64,000 nt of DNA from Cellulomonas sp. URHD0024 (GTDB taxonomy: Bacteria > Actinomycetota > Actinomycetes > Actinomycetales > Cellulomonadaceae): contig NZ_AUEW01000007.1 in NCBI RefSeq assembly GCF_000426185.1, positions 62,001 to 126,000 on the forward strand, written 5' to 3'. The position numbers and the translations under genes are program-made. The notes beneath the pieces were generated by a model that was given only the letters and a program-made list of their open reading frames with translations, made no database searches and was not told where the DNA came from. Within the stretch, counting starts at the first letter, position 1; each line of letters starts with the position of its first letter. Shown here piece after piece: positions 12,551 to 17,964 of the stretch.

Positions 12551-12597
12551 CACCGGTAGCGGGTGATGTCCGGAACGTCCGGTATCACGCACCGGTG
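12551..12597. promoter_or_regulatory. composite dyad upstream of the peptide cassette
   Basis: Outer arms CACCGGT (12551-12557) and ACCGGTG (12591-12597) enclose GTGAT (12563-12567) and ATCAC (12584-12588), which in turn enclose CCGG (12570-12573) and CCGG (12579-12582). This layered symmetry lies 66 bp before the 25-codon ORF in otherwise non-coding DNA. It could be an operator or a folded 5' leader. No regulator of the right kind is adjacent. Confidence 0.5.
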
Positions 12598-12662
12598 GAC
12601 CCTCTCTTCCTCCCCGTGCAGCCGACGCGGGCGGCACGGACAGCAGGGGGGAGGTGACAGCA

Positions 12663-12740
12663 ATGACGATCGAGATCGTGGTCGTCGAGGAGATTACGGC
12701 TACCCGGATCCACCTCGACCCTGACGCCGGCGGCGCCTGA
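12663..12740 (+). CDS. 25-residue peptide, candidate RiPP precursor
   Basis: ATG 12663 follows a near-ideal ribosome site (GGGAGGTGA, 5 nt before it). The product is rich in Ile, Val and Glu at the front (MTIEIVVVEE) and ends RIHLDPDAGGA. It has no cysteine and no serine, and three threonines. It is followed by a strong hairpin, then by an adenylating enzyme and a protease gene on the same strand. Precursor, attenuator, modifying enzyme, protease is a classic RiPP order. I infer that the peptide is activated or modified by the ThiF-like protein. No known precursor family was recognised. Confidence 0.65.
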   Translation: MTIEIVVVEEITATRIHLDPDAGGA

Positions 12741-12752
12741 GTTCCCGCCGCT

Positions 12753-12788
12753 GAGGGCTGGCCCGGCCGTGTGGCCGGGCCGGCCCTC
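12753..12788 (+). terminator. strong hairpin between peptide and enzyme genes (attenuator)
   Basis: GAGGGC (12753-12758) and GGCCCGGCC (12760-12768) pair with GGCCGGGCC (12773-12781) and GCCCTC (12783-12788) around a GTGT loop, giving a 16-bp stem with one T-G wobble. CTACGTTTT follows. A partial terminator here would keep the peptide mRNA in excess over the enzyme mRNA. Confidence 0.8.
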
Positions 12789-12829
12789 CTACGTTTTCCA
12801 GCCCATCGCAGACGACGAAGGACGACGAC

Positions 12830-13909
12830 ATGCTCCCGCGACTCAAGTCGCTCAACGTGCTGGCCTCGGGCACGGACCTGCTGGTCAGCCTGGACCCGAA
12901 GGTCCGCGTCCGGCTCGCCGACCCGGACGGTTCCGTGCTCGCACTCTTGCGGCTGTTGCAGGACGGGTCACGGACGCCTGACGAGCTCGCGGCGCAGGTC
13001 GGTTCCGACGTCCGGCCCGTGCTCGACCACCTCGACCGGCTCGGCTGGCTGGAGGACGCGTCGGCGCGGTCGCCGTTCGACGCGCACGACACCGAGCGCT
13101 ACTTCAGCAACCTCGCGTTCTTCGACGCGTTCACCACCCTGTCGCTGCCGCGCGACGAACCGCAGGAGCGACTGCGGGCCTCGCACGTGCTCGTGCTCGG
13201 CGCGGGCGGGCTCGGGTCTGCCGTGCTGATGAACCTGGCCGGGCTGGGTGTCGGCGCGCTGACCGTCGTCGACCAGGACCTCGTCGAGCTGCGCAACTTC
13301 GCGCGACAGTTCACGTACACGGAGGCCTCGCTCGGGCAGCCGAAGGCCGACCGGGTCGCCGACTGGCTGCGCGCGTTCGACCCCTCGCTGCGCGTCGCCT
13401 CCGAGAGGCGGCGCGTCGAGTCCACCGAGGACGTCGCCGAGCTCATCCGCGCGACGAAGCCCGACCTGGTGGTGTCCGCGATCGACGAGCCCGACGAGGT
13501 CGACCGGTGGGTCAACGCGGCGTGCGTCGCCGCGGGTGTGCCCTTCGTCCGCGGGGGTCTGGCCTACACGCAGGGGCTCTACTGGTCGGTCGACCCCGGC
13601 CGCAGCGCGTGCCGGGAGTGCCTGGAACGGCACCGCGAGAGACTGGCCGGCGGCGTCGACGCCGAGATCGTCGACGTCCCCCGGGTCCTGCGCCAGGACC
13701 GCGTCAACCGCGCGATCGGCCCGGTCGCGGGCGTGCTCGGCGGCCTGGTCGCGATGGAGGCGCTGCGCTACCTGACCGGTCTCGGCGAACCCGTGGCCGC
13801 CGGGCGTTACCAGCTGCTCGACTTCGCCGGTGACTGCTCGACGTCGTCCGACGCCTGGCCCGCGGACCCCGACTGCCCGGTGTGCGCGACGGCTCTGGTC
13901 CCGGCATGA
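12830..13909 (+). CDS. ThiF/E1-like adenylating enzyme with N-terminal RRE-like domain
   Basis: 359 residues. Residues ~10-80 form a winged-helix-like region (VSLDPKVRVRLADPDGSVLALLRLL, then TPDELAAQV and LDRLGWLED) resembling the RRE/PqqD clamp that binds precursor peptides. The E1 domain follows: GAGGLG 124-129, the acidic pair near VDQD, NFARQ 156-160 with its Arg, Lys172, and a four-cysteine zinc site (CREC 261-264, CPVC 349-352). In ThiF, MoeB and MccB this fold adenylates a peptide C-terminus. AAGGA precedes the ATG, and the stop overlaps the protease gene. Substrate: probably the 25-residue peptide. Confidence 0.85.
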   Translation: MLPRLKSLNVLASGTDLLVSLDPKVRVRLADPDGSVLALLRLLQDGSRTPDELAAQVGSDVRPVLDHLDRLGWLEDASARSPFDAHDTERYFSNLAFFDAFTTLSLPRDEPQERLRASHVLVLGAGGLGSAVLMNLAGLGVGALTVVDQDLVELRNFARQFTYTEASLGQPKADRVADWLRAFDPSLRVASERRRVESTEDVAELIRATKPDLVVSAIDEPDEVDRWVNAACVAAGVPFVRGGLAYTQGLYWSVDPGRSACRECLERHRERLAGGVDAEIVDVPRVLRQDRVNRAIGPVAGVLGGLVAMEALRYLTGLGEPVAAGRYQLLDFAGDCSTSSDAWPADPDCPVCATALVPA

Positions 13910-15108
13910 CCACCCTCACCGCCGACTCGGTGCTCCGGTTGCGCCCGCTGACGATGACGCCGCAGGCGGGCAGCGTCATCGTCGGGCGTGCGGACATCGG
14001 GCGGTTCGTGGCGCTCCCGCCGATCGGCGCCCAGGCTGTCGAGCTGCTTCACCAGGGGCTGAGCATCGCGGCCGTCGAGGCCGCCGTCACGCCGCCGGAC
14101 GCCACCGAGCCGGTCGACGTCCTCGGCTTCGCCACCTCGCTCGTCGGCCTCGACTTCGTGGAGTCCGTGGACCTCGTCGCGACGCGGAGCGAAGAGGCAC
14201 GACGTGGGCCGGGGCTCGTCGTCGCGCCTGGGCCGCACGCCCGCTGGCTCTTCTCCCGAACGGGCGCGGCGCTCGCGGCCCTCGCCGGGCTGGCCGCCGT
14301 CGTGCTGATGATCGCCGTGCCGTCGTCGCGACCGCACCCGCTCGACGCGTTCTTCCTCAGCACCCCCGCGGAGAGCCTCGCGGCACTGACCGTGCTCACC
14401 TACGCGCTGGCCGGGCTGCACGAGCTCGCGCACGTCATGGCGGCCGCGGCCCTCGGCGTGCCGGCCCGGCTGCGGATCACGCGACGGCTCTACTTCCTGA
14501 CCTTCGAGACGAACCTGACCGGTCTGTGGGCGCTGCCTCCGCGGCGTCGGCTCGGGCCGCTGCTGGCCGGGATGGCGTTCGACGCGGTGGTGCTGTTCGC
14601 GCTCCTGGTCCTGCGCGTCACCGGGACCGGCCCGGACAGGCTCGTCGCGGCGCTCGTCCTGGTCGAGGTGTCGGCGCTCGTCGTGCAGCTCTTCGTCTTC
14701 CTGCGCTCCGACGTCTACGCCGTGATGACGGCGCTGCTCGGCTGCACCAACCTCGCCCAGACCACCCGGCTGCTGCTGCGGCGCTCGCTGCGTCGACTCT
14801 CTCCGGCCCAGGCGGCCGACCTGGCTGCGATGCCGGAGCGGGATGTCGCGGTCGCCCGCTGGTACCGGTTCGTGCACGTCGCCGGGCTCGCGGTCGCCGC
14901 CTGGTTCTTCGTGGCGTTCTTCGTCCCGACGACGCTGCACCTGCTGGTCTGGATGCGCGATGCCCTCGTCGAGGCCGGGCCGACGCACGTCGCGTTCTAC
15001 CAGGCGCTCGTCCTGGGCGTCCTGCTGCTCTCGCCGCGCGCGATCACCGGGCTGGTCGCACTGCGCGACCTCGTGCAGAGCCGCCGCCTCAAGGTGGAGC
15101 CGTCCTAA
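13906..15108 (+). CDS. membrane zinc metalloprotease (M50/site-2-like) with PqqD-like N-terminus
   Basis: 400 residues. The first ~95 resemble PqqD/RRE modules (VIVGRADIGRFVALPPIGAQAVELLHQG). Several membrane helices follow. Helix 2 carries HELAH at 172-176, the HExxH zinc motif, and Asp226 in AGMAFDAVV is a possible third ligand. This is the layout of putative peptide zinc metalloproteases found in RiPP clusters. It overlaps the ThiF gene by 4 bp, so the two are made together. It could cleave or export the modified peptide. Its stop codon overlaps that of the convergent sigma gene. Confidence 0.85.
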   Translation: MTTLTADSVLRLRPLTMTPQAGSVIVGRADIGRFVALPPIGAQAVELLHQGLSIAAVEAAVTPPDATEPVDVLGFATSLVGLDFVESVDLVATRSEEARRGPGLVVAPGPHARWLFSRTGAALAALAGLAAVVLMIAVPSSRPHPLDAFFLSTPAESLAALTVLTYALAGLHELAHVMAAAALGVPARLRITRRLYFLTFETNLTGLWALPPRRRLGPLLAGMAFDAVVLFALLVLRVTGTGPDRLVAALVLVEVSALVVQLFVFLRSDVYAVMTALLGCTNLAQTTRLLLRRSLRRLSPAQAADLAAMPERDVAVARWYRFVHVAGLAVAAWFFVAFFVPTTLHLLVWMRDALVEAGPTHVAFYQALVLGVLLLSPRAITGLVALRDLVQSRRLKVEPS

Positions 15109-15947
15109 CGCAAGAGCGCCTCCACACCCAGTGCGGCGACGCGGACCGGCGCGGCGATCTCGTCGATCTCGGCCACCTGGCCACCGACGACCGTGAACGC
15201 CAGGACCGCGGCGACCTGACCCTGGGCCGTGACGACCGAGCCGGCCGCGTTGTTGATCAGCACGTGGTGCGACGTCGACCGCACCCGGCCCAGCATGACC
15301 GCGCGCCGCGCCATCTGCTCGGCGCCCTCGACGACCGCCGACATCGCGTGCCCACCGGCGTCGGCCCGCAGGACCGCGTCCGGTCGGATCATCGACCGGA
15401 CCGCGTCCTCGTCGCCCGCCCGGACGGCCTTGAAGAACGCGTCGAGTACTGCTCGCTGCCCACGGAGGTCGCCGTCGGGGGCCAGGGGCTCGCCGACCGC
15501 TGCGCGGGCTCGGTCGGTCAGTGCGGTCACGGCCGTCGCGGGCAGCCCGAGCACGTCGGCGATCCTGTCCACCTCCAGGCCGTACCCGTCGTGCAGCACG
15601 AACGCGACGCGCTCGTGGGCCGAGAGGGCGTCGAGCGTGACGTACAGCACCGAGCCGACCGACCCGGCCAGCAGCTCGAGCTGCTCGGGAGTGTGCTGGT
15701 CCGCCGTCGTCACGACGAGGTCCGGTACGTGCCAGTCGTCGCGCGGTGCCTTCGCGCGCCGGCTCAGCGTGTCGAGGCACAGCCGGGCCACGGCGAGATC
15801 CGTCTCGTCGGAGGAGCCTTCGCGCTCGGAGGCCTGTCGAACGGCCGTGTCGGTCTCGTCGAGAGAACCGAGCAACCGGAACGCCAGCCCGCGGAGCCGC
15901 GGACCTCTCGGCGCGGACCGGACGATCTCTGAGGCCTGCTGGGCCAT
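15105..15947 (-). CDS. ECF sigma factor-like protein with SnoaL-like C-terminus (ECF41/SigJ type)
   Basis: 280 residues. The start resembles ECF41 region 2 (PRLRGLAFRLLGSLDETDTAV), but the usual conserved stretch after it (DAVQETWLRW type) is replaced by a shorter non-matching segment. Region 4 is intact (LSAHERVAFVLHDGYGLEVDRIADVLG). Residues ~175-280 are a SnoaL-like domain (VLDAFFKAVRAGDEDAVRSMI), which in ECF41 proteins senses a signal and controls the sigma activity in cis. ATG 15947 is the first start before the domain. No carboxymuconolactone-type partner gene is adjacent, which is unusual for this group. Confidence 0.78.
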   Translation of the reverse strand: MAQQASEIVRSAPRGPRLRGLAFRLLGSLDETDTAVRQASEREGSSDETDLAVARLCLDTLSRRAKAPRDDWHVPDLVVTTADQHTPEQLELLAGSVGSVLYVTLDALSAHERVAFVLHDGYGLEVDRIADVLGLPATAVTALTDRARAAVGEPLAPDGDLRGQRAVLDAFFKAVRAGDEDAVRSMIRPDAVLRADAGGHAMSAVVEGAEQMARRAVMLGRVRSTSHHVLINNAAGSVVTAQGQVAAVLAFTVVGGQVAEIDEIAAPVRVAALGVEALLR

Positions 15948-16199
15948 CGCGCACCATCCGTCGTGAGAGCTCGTCGAGACGTGGTCGCGGCGGCCCGAAC
16001 CGTCGCGACTGCCGGCTCGTGGTGCGCCTCGTTGGGCTGTCCTCGACCATATGCCGCCGGCCTCGTGGCATTCCCGACTGACCTGCGAAATCACCCGCGC
16101 GACTCCTGGACCCCGAAGCCAACGCCCCGAGTCGCACGCCTGCGCTCGCAGGCGCCGAACTTGTGGTCGTGCACGTCAAAAGGCTCGTTGACGCGCACA

Positions 16200-16215
16200 G
16201 GCACAAGCTCGTGCC
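16200..16215 (-). terminator. short hairpin behind the MFS gene
   Basis: GGCACAAGCTCGTGCC is a near-perfect 16-bp palindrome immediately after the stop codon of the MFS gene on the minus strand. The remaining intergenic DNA to 15948 shows no gene or other clear signal. Confidence 0.35.
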
Positions 16216-17459
16216 TACTCCGGCGCGGGCGCGTCCTGGGCGTCCGTGTGGGCGACGTGACGGAGCTGGTGCCAGATCAGCGCGACGAAGATCGCCGACC
16301 CGCCGAACGCGAACCAGAACGGCGCCGTGATCCCGTACCTCTGCGCGAGCACGCCGCCGATGCCCGCGCCGATCACCAGGCCGCCGTACACCCCGACGAG
16401 GTTGACGCTGCCGACCCGCCCCTGCAGCGCCGTCGGGACCGCCCGCTGCCGGATCGTGACCGACGTGGTGCCCCAGACGAACGCGTGCGCGCCGAAGACG
16501 AAGAAGATGCCGAGGGCGACCGCCGGCGTCGTGGTCAGCGCGAGGCCGAGGTGGGTGAGCGTCTCGATGATCAGGCCGACGCGCATGAGGTTGGCCAGCG
16601 AGATGCGCCGGGTGATCCAGCCGTAGGACAGCGTGCCGGCGAGGCCACCGAGCGCGCCGACCGTCGTGATGAGCCCGAACCCGACGGCCCCCAGCCCGAG
16701 TCGTTCGCGGGCGTAGAGGACCAGCACGGACCAGGCCGCCCCGAACGTGACGTTGAAGATCAGGATCGTCAGCACCAGGGTCCGCACGGCGGCGTGGTGG
16801 AGCACCCAGCGCACGCCCTCGGCGATGTCGTGGCGGATGTGGGTGTGGTGGTGCTCCCGGACCACGACAGGCAACGAGATCCGCGAGATGAGCCATGCGC
16901 CGGCGCCGACGAGCACGGCGTCGGCGGCGAACGGGAGAGCCTGCCCGGCCGCGAACAACAGGGCGCCCAGCGGCGGCCCGACCAGCTGGTTCACCGTGAC
17001 GAACCCGGCCTGGATGCGGGAGTTCGCCAGCGCCAGGTCGTCCCGGTCGACGAGCATCGGCACGAGCGTGCTCGACGCCGTGTCGGCGAACGTCTCGGCC
17101 GTGGCCAGCACGAAGATCGCGACCAGGACCACCCCGATCGTCGCGACGTCGGCGACGACGGCCACCGCGAGCAGCCCGACGATCGTGGCGCGGACGCAGT
17201 CGACCGTGATGACCAGCCGGCGCCGGTCCACGCGGTCCGTGATCGCGCCGGCCCACAGCCCGAACAGGAGCGCCGGCAGCCAGTTGAGGAGCGCGGCCAG
17301 CGCGACGAGGAAGGCGTCGTCCGTGCGGGAGGCCACCAGCAGCGGGCCGGCCGCGAGGATGATTCCGTCGCCGAGGTTCGACGTCCACGACGACGCGAGC
17401 AGCCACCGGAACCGTCGATCCAGCCGTGGCGGGACCACGACGTCGAGGATTCGGCTCAC
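16215..17459 (-). CDS. MFS transporter (EntS-like, MFS_3)
   Basis: A 414-residue membrane protein with about 12 helices. It has motif A (WAGAITDRVDRRRLVI) after helix 2, TLVPMLVDRDDLALANSRI in the loop after helix 4, typical of the enterobactin exporter-like MFS_3 group, and LQGRVGSVN in the second half. A His-rich stretch (REHHHTHIRHD) lies in the central cytoplasmic loop. GTG 17459 is chosen over ATG 17534, because the longer form would overlap the divergent VOC gene start and leave no room for promoters. The substrate is unknown. Confidence 0.85.
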   Translation of the reverse strand: MSRILDVVVPPRLDRRFRWLLASSWTSNLGDGIILAAGPLLVASRTDDAFLVALAALLNWLPALLFGLWAGAITDRVDRRRLVITVDCVRATIVGLLAVAVVADVATIGVVLVAIFVLATAETFADTASSTLVPMLVDRDDLALANSRIQAGFVTVNQLVGPPLGALLFAAGQALPFAADAVLVGAGAWLISRISLPVVVREHHHTHIRHDIAEGVRWVLHHAAVRTLVLTILIFNVTFGAAWSVLVLYARERLGLGAVGFGLITTVGALGGLAGTLSYGWITRRISLANLMRVGLIIETLTHLGLALTTTPAVALGIFFVFGAHAFVWGTTSVTIRQRAVPTALQGRVGSVNLVGVYGGLVIGAGIGGVLAQRYGITAPFWFAFGGSAIFVALIWHQLRHVAHTDAQDAPAPE

Positions 17460-17532
17460 AACGACCAGACGGTAGCCCGCGCTCCGTCGATAGGCTCGAC
17501 GGAATTCTGCGTCTCGACGAGAGGGCACTCCC

Positions 17533-17964
17533 ATGGACTGGACCCTGGAGGTCGTGGTCGTCCCGGTCAGCGACCTGGCGGCGTCGATCGCGTTCTACCG
17601 CGACCAGGTCGGCTTCGACCTCGACCACGAGACGGTCAACGACTACATGCACGTGGCGCAGCTGACCCCGCGCGGCTCGGGCTGCTCGATCGTCCTCGGC
17701 AACCTGCCGTCCCAGAACGAGATGGCCCCCGGCTCGTTGCGCGGTCTGCAGCTCGTGGTGGCCGACGCTTCCGCGGCCCGGGACGAGCTCCTGTCGCGCG
17801 GGGTCAAGGCCTCCGAGATCACCGTGTTCGACGAGCGCGACGGCGGCACGTTCTTCGGCTTCGCCGACCCGGACGGGAACACGTGGGCCGTCCAACAGCT
17901 GCGCGTCCGCGCTGACAAGCCCCTGATCCCGGTCGAGCACCGAACCCGCTTCGGCGGCGCGTAG
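17533..17964 (+). CDS. VOC family protein
   Basis: 143 residues, two beta-alpha-beta units in one VOC module: LEVVVVPVSDLAASIAFYRDQ at the start, and FDERDGGTFFGFADPDGNTWAVQQ at the metal-side closing strand. The closing pattern FADPDGNTW is typical of glyoxalase/dioxygenase-like small-molecule binders. It is divergent from the MFS gene, with 73 bp between starts, so the two may share a control region. Confidence 0.87.
   Translation: MDWTLEVVVVPVSDLAASIAFYRDQVGFDLDHETVNDYMHVAQLTPRGSGCSIVLGNLPSQNEMAPGSLRGLQLVVADASAARDELLSRGVKASEITVFDERDGGTFFGFADPDGNTWAVQQLRVRADKPLIPVEHRTRFGGA

Follow-up and report, generated by a model that had tools for sequence, protein, structure and literature searches.

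A three-gene operon of Cellulomonas predicted to make a modified peptide with a ThiF-type enzyme and an M50 protease, both carrying RRE-like domains

A stretch of 64,000 nucleotides from Cellulomonas sp. URHD0024 (assembly GCF_000426185.1, contig NZ_AUEW01000007.1, positions 62,001 to 126,000; hereafter the window) was found to carry three consecutive genes, encoding a 25-residue peptide, an E1-like enzyme of the ThiF family and a membrane metalloprotease of the M50 family. The genome is 4.47 Mb in size, and its close relatives are named Cellulomonas. The trio almost certainly makes a small modified peptide from the 25-residue precursor. We regard it as probable that the three genes form a minimal operon for a ribosomally synthesized and post-translationally modified peptide (RiPP), in which a ThiF enzyme fused to a RiPP recognition element (RRE) would adenylate the C-terminus of the precursor and an RRE-fused M50 protease would remove the leader. 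A first-pass annotation of the window had proposed a RiPP system at this place, and the coordinates, ribosome site, hairpin, ATP motifs and HELAH motif that it described were all confirmed in the sequence.

The precursor gene (12663..12740, + strand; 25 codons at 12663-12737, stop codon at 12738-12740) encodes MTIEIVVVEEITATRIHLDPDAGGA. The peptide was divided into a leader of residues 1-14 (MTIEIVVVEEITAT; 12663..12704, +), ending in an invariant Thr14, and a putative core, RIHLDPDAGGA (12705..12737, +), which contains no Cys, Ser, Thr, Lys or Trp; both the border and the core status are predicted. The ribosome-binding site GGGAGGTGA (12649..12657, +) lies five bases ahead of the ATG, and a strong purine-rich ribosome site precedes the peptide in all relatives. 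A scan of a genome collection together with a family-level search yielded eight further distinct Cellulomonas loci (nine in all). The peptide was present and nearly invariant in 9/9 of them, with the consensus MTIEI(M/V)xVEEITATRIHLDP(D/E)AGGA; one locus had D for E at residue 4, and two (L007 and L008) ended in DPDAYVYGAA. Codons at conserved residues (2, 11-14, 20) had drifted synonymously across the Cellulomonas loci. Since all nine loci carry the peptide and conserved residues show synonymous changes, a chance open reading frame (ORF) is excluded and the precursor gene is, judging by its sequence, under purifying selection. The expectation that a short ORF would be conserved in relatives was thus borne out, in support of the RiPP reading. 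The order peptide-ThiF-M50 was the same in all nine Cellulomonas loci, and the trio is a conserved unit, because the flanking genes were mostly not shared between loci. Among 200 genomes sampled in the family, this ThiF protein was detected at E<=1e-30 in five, all of one genus.

A profile search with the M50 protein recovered homologues in other actinobacterial families, and 15 such loci had a ThiF of the same kind nearby; a short precursor was found in 14/15 of these. The leaders of the non-Cellulomonas precursors (e.g. KIEVRKVExxxxT or KITIRLLDKIETT) share the motif x[IVL]x[IVA]xx[VL][ED]x[IVT]x[ALT]T with the window peptide, and are followed by differing cores: QFMT, YFIPDYDS, QLIHPDS, INRGGQSG, GWRVIGAGG, TSSNSVGN, NASNSVGN, QTYSGNSNS and AFSQGNST. 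When 355 kb of control strand were scanned, the loose leader pattern occurred 4 times (about 1 per 89 kb) and the strict pattern 0 times, a rough control, as the pattern was shaped on these very precursors. The closest peptide outside the genus, MKITVVKVERIEATRIHLDPDAGGA of locus L046 in another actinobacterial family, was identical to the window peptide at 19/25 residues, including the last 13, while its ThiF and M50 proteins were 41% and 33% identical to those of the window. The core RIHLDPDAGGA was the same in L003, L005, L006 and L046, and residue 21 was Glu in others. Among the five genomes of the family of genome G604, no RIHLDPDAGGA relatives were found besides G604. A DPDxGG-like end, which had been suggested as a conserved mark of such precursors, was not general: it held in most Cellulomonas loci and one other family, and other precursors end in cores such as QFMT, YFIPDYDS, INRGGQSG or TSSNSVGN. 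A shared leader with a core that varies by lineage, yet is identical in L046 despite divergent enzymes, argues for the RiPP reading.

M50 homologues with the same leader type but no detectable ThiF were also seen (L062, L066 and L087, with MKKLVVRKLEPIKTSANADCVPAAA, MPRMKKLIVRRLESVKTSAATSCSVVVA and ...FAIRDVETVKTTAAALYIPFFCGGGGWPF); the contig of L087 is short, which bears on its apparent lack of ThiF. Presumably other modifying enzymes act in these three loci. A second precursor-like ORF (...RQIRIRLLDATETAVCSNSTGN) was present 3' of the M50 gene in L052 (8680-8892, reverse-complemented locus) and L059 (8909-9121).

The ThiF protein (359 aa; 12830..13909, +) is encoded 89 bases downstream of the peptide gene. 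It consists of an RRE/PqqD-like N-terminal domain (residues 1-80; 12830..13069, +), assigned by model and alignments, and an E1/ThiF catalytic domain (residues 108-350; 13151..13879, +), which matched Pfam ThiF at 4.7e-52. When the family profile was compared with the PDB, the best match was MccB (8.7e-51), and PaaA matched at 5.7e-47 over nearly the full length, including the RRE. Foldseek with the AlphaFold model, a low-confidence model with a mean pLDDT of 58.9, also placed MccB first and PaaA next, so that profile and fold agreed on the MccB-like E1 proposed earlier. The GxGGxGS motif, the R/Q/K/D residues for ATP and the CxxC...CxxC residues are intact in the window protein. Across 12 diverse members, G124, G126, G127, D148, D150, N156, R159, Q160 and K172 were invariant, as were D219, C261, C264, C349 and C352 (ATP/Mg and Zn residues). 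These sequence features place the window protein with the E1-like enzymes MccB and PaaA and show that its adenylation motifs are intact.

The M50 gene (13906..15108, +) overlaps the ThiF gene by four bases (13906-13909) and encodes a predicted intramembrane metalloprotease of 400 aa. Its HExxH zinc motif (HELAH, 14419-14433) and D269 (14710-14712) were invariant in 12 diverse members. Profile matches in these members were weak, to Peptidase_M50 in 6/12 and PqqD in 2/12 for Pfam, and to NCBIfam daptide_HExxH (NF041824) in 2/12 (best 5.1e-6), the last with no match in the window protein. The window M50 protein and the peptide had zero matches in Pfam, NCBIfam and PHROGs, and a PDB sequence search with the protease returned nothing relevant. 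The membrane part gave a faint Foldseek match to SpoIVFB (probability 0.60). The N-terminal domain (residues 8-90; 13927..14175, +) was modeled with pLDDT mostly 77-93, and resembled by Foldseek the RREs of TbiB1, 6jx3 and ThcOx at probabilities of 0.93-0.99 but E values of 0.3-0.8. An hhalign comparison matched the N-terminal parts of the ThiF and M50 proteins across 81 columns (E 2e-4, probability 47%). In the ThiF model this region contains beta strands and three helices, and the RRE assignment there draws on the PaaA/MccB alignment, the low-confidence model and hhalign. The N-terminal regions of both enzymes are thus RRE/PqqD-like, as the first-pass annotation had suspected.

Known ThiF-like RiPP enzymes adenylate a peptide carboxylate (PMC12150305). 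For this operon we infer activation at the C-terminus and processing by the protease, in the following order. In the ThiF enzyme, the RRE would bind the leader (residues 1-14) as a strand, and the enzyme would adenylate the C-terminal carboxylate. A nucleophile would then attack the adenylate; the simplest case is one in the peptide itself, giving a macrocycle or imide, as with EnfB and IndF. Next, the same leader would pass to the RRE of the M50 protein, whose active site would cut near the invariant Thr14, freeing the core at the membrane. We think it probable that the product is a small signal or an antibiotic-like compound. Two points make us prefer activation of the C-terminus. Asp and Glu are both absent from 9/18 tabulated ThiF-linked cores (e.g. 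QFMT, INRGGQSG, GWRVIGAGG, TSSNSVGN and AFSQGNST), so that the one carboxylate which every core possesses is that of the C-terminus, and EnfB and IndF act in this way (PMC12250964, PMC12150305).

Several points weigh against this pathway. L064, a locus with both ThiF and M50, had no precursor on its 6.4-kb contig. The operon holds no transporter, and both product and reaction are predicted from the genes. The core offers no obvious intramolecular nucleophile; the candidates are Thr12 and Thr14 at the leader border, His17 and backbone amides. The low pLDDT of the ThiF model and the weak E values of the protease RRE match count here too, and within Cellulomonas the core hardly varies, in contrast to antibiotic cores, which diversify.

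Activation of a side-chain carboxylate in the manner of PaaA, either at the leader acid of the [VL][ED]x[IVT]x[ALT]T segment or at core Asp19 or Asp21, would give for instance a Glu-Thr ester or a pantocin-like bicycle. We consider this unlikely, although it accounts for part of the data: an acidic residue with a Thr five residues later was invariant in all ThiF-linked precursors, and PaaA, one of the nearest relatives with a solved structure, has Glu16/Glu17 of PaaP as its target (PMC12250964). That leader acid, with T or T-S after it, was, however, also present in the three M50 loci in which no ThiF was detected (L062, L066 and L087), and therefore the leader acid and Thr look like features for recognition or cleavage rather than sites of the E1 reaction. 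The Glu9-Glu10 pair of the window leader was E-R in L046, and half of the tabulated cores lack an acidic side chain, as given above.

A microcin C-like reaction, in which the C-terminus is joined to a nucleotide by a phosphoramidate to give a peptide-nucleotide compound, is improbable. MccB is the best solved match in profile and fold, and one related lineage has Asn-ending precursors (SNSVGN). MccB works, however, on a C-terminal Asn (PMC12150305), whereas the window peptide and all Cellulomonas precursors end in Ala, and the three-gene operon contains neither an exporter nor a further microcin C-type gene. We see just as little chance that, as in pearlin pathways, the peptide serves repeatedly as a scaffold on which the last residue is modified and afterwards cut off by the M50 protease, in the manner of TglG and TmoG. 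M50 proteases do cut C-terminal amino acids in those pathways (PMC10885120), and in Cellulomonas conservation extends over the whole peptide beyond the leader, but no amino-acid-adding (PEARL/LanB-like) gene lies in the operon and the cores differ strongly between lineages.

The peptide and ThiF genes are separated by a hairpin of 16 pairs with a 4-base loop (12753..12788, +), and the intergenic stretch folded with a z-score of -4.2. The hairpin was kept in all loci, including L046 with a different stem sequence, and at 8/14 consensus positions the pairs had changed on both sides across the nine loci. A T-run after the hairpin was present in the window genome only. The hairpin, described earlier as an attenuator, is real and conserved, but without a conserved T-run its role as classical terminator or attenuator is doubtful; a partial terminator that yields more precursor, or an mRNA end, may be suggested instead. 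It is very improbable that the short ORF encodes a leader peptide through which the enzyme genes are attenuated, the hairpin acting as their terminator: its position 5' of ThiF with a conserved hairpin in between would suit such a role, but the precursor gene stands between the enzymes in L018 and L045 and after ThiF in loci of the L050-L061 type, on which ground this explanation was rejected. Conservation of the amino-acid sequence under synonymous drift, the missing T-run in relatives and the peptide-binding-type domains on both enzymes argue in the same direction. Upstream of the peptide, a promoter-like element, GGGTGA-N15-GTATC (12561..12586, +), lies about 76 bases 5' of the start, and GGGTGA-N15/16-GTATC preceded the peptide in all nine Cellulomonas loci; in L046, GTATCT was kept behind GGGGAA. 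As the mark of a regulon the element was discarded: its exact form occurs at only 2 sites in the whole genome, and no similar peptide was seen behind the other one.

There is next to no probability that the ThiF protein is a housekeeping-type E1 acting on a sulfur carrier (ThiS/MoaD) with the peptide unrelated. Its catalytic domain also matches MoeB and ThiF, but the protein scores well under every NCBIfam MoeB/ThiF cut-off and carries an RRE-like extension. The sole ThiS-family protein found in the genome (C4:127231) is encoded on a different contig, about 3 kb away from another ThiF match (C4:123631) that scores better. We rejected this explanation on these grounds. Three findings that the first-pass annotation had named as telling against its proposal were looked at (no short ORF upstream in relatives, N-termini without an RRE fold, a standard MoaD/ThiS partner), and none came true.

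The claim that the locus fits no named kind of RiPP found no support. ThiF-like RiPP pathways are an established group, comprising MccB, PaaA, GrcB, EnfB and IndF (PMC12150305, PMC12250964), and the discovery of daptides started from their RRE-fused M50 proteases (PMC10036551). The locus shares with the former the RRE-ThiF fusion, intact ATP/Mg and Zn residues, and a linked short precursor with a conserved leader. MccB and PaaA, the closest solved structures, have the same domain order as the window ThiF. MccA ends in Asn, unlike the window peptide; in pantocin, the core of PaaP is Glu-Glu-Asn and an oxygenase takes part, whereas L046 has E-R and the three-gene operon no oxygenase. The TLAT pathways enterofaecin (EnfB), ind (IndF) and grc (GrcB) likewise have an RRE fused to an active ThiF domain and an adjacent precursor. 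EnfB needs a (V/I)RKA leader motif (PMC12250964), which is near VRKV/IRKL of several relatives here, whereas the window leader has lost the RK pair. The ind cluster consists only of precursor, ThiF, peptidase and transporter (PMC12150305). These pathways, however, are from Firmicutes and have Trp/Ile or Cys core chemistry, while most cores here have no Cys or Trp, the protease is RRE-M50 and the operon lacks a transporter. In place of the enterofaecin/ind core WWIVI or NWYFI the window has RIHLDPDAGGA, and unlike grc, with its Cys-Glu thiolactone and radical SAM partners, it has no Cys in the peptide and no radical SAM match on this contig. DapP of daptides (NF041824) has an N-terminal RRE on an intramembrane site-2 protease (PMC10036551), an architecture that the window M50 protein may share, but daptide clusters have a precursor with C-terminal Thr, a decarboxylase, an aminotransferase and a methyltransferase and no ThiF, whereas the window peptide ends in Ala, the operon has none of these three enzymes and the flanking genes are not conserved. 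Pearlin TglG/TmoG and epipeptide EpeP, likened here by description, are also membrane M50 proteases that process RiPPs (PMC10885120), in systems whose modifying enzymes differ from those of the window. YcaO, the mark of azol(in)e RiPPs, was absent from the genome.

Genes around the operon varied. An MFS_3 transporter gene in the window (16215..17534, -; Pfam MFS_3 7.8e-30) is a possible exporter of the product, with weak association: an MFS_3 gene adjoins M50 in L007 and L008 and lies about 8 kb away in L005, and none was seen near L003, L004 and L006. A gene at 15105-16094 (-), with sigma-70 region 4 and a SnoaL-like end, converges with the M50 gene; it was rejected as a dedicated regulator, not being conserved beside the other copies. 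Elsewhere, the precursor and M50 genes of L050, L052, L053, L055 and L058-L061 have a DUF6879-like gene (PF21806, as tested in L053) between them or close by, and DUF6879 may be part of a RiPP pathway in the actinobacterial group to which these loci belong. The M50 homologue is directly 5' of a large gene (~690-770 aa) in L019, L048, L049, L051 and L063, several of these proteins starting like MxxHHWIRAARRRDR, and a gene judged AfsR-like by eye is nearby in L019, L048, L051, L056 and L057.

No open paper joining ThiF, M50 and this precursor was found, most subscription papers lying outside the search, and in the open literature covered there appears to be no report of the RRE-ThiF plus RRE-M50 combination, its precursors or their spread among actinobacteria. 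We do not claim a new class, because the class-defining chemistry rests on inference; the combination would count as a variant among known RRE-ThiF and RRE-M50 systems. More tentatively, the loci could represent an undescribed actinobacterial RiPP family, with one leader motif read by two RREs (on the E1 and the membrane protease), a product made without Cys, Trp or Lys chemistry (e.g. a macrolactone closed through Thr, or an imide or amide at the C-terminus) and RIHLDPDAGGA conserved across families. As a complete three-gene system with a synthesisable 25-residue substrate, the operon makes the reaction directly testable in vitro. With a core that lacks the usual nucleophile, a dehydration product would probably represent new chemistry. 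The leader common to these loci points to an actinobacterial leader-plus-protease module that could be exchanged.

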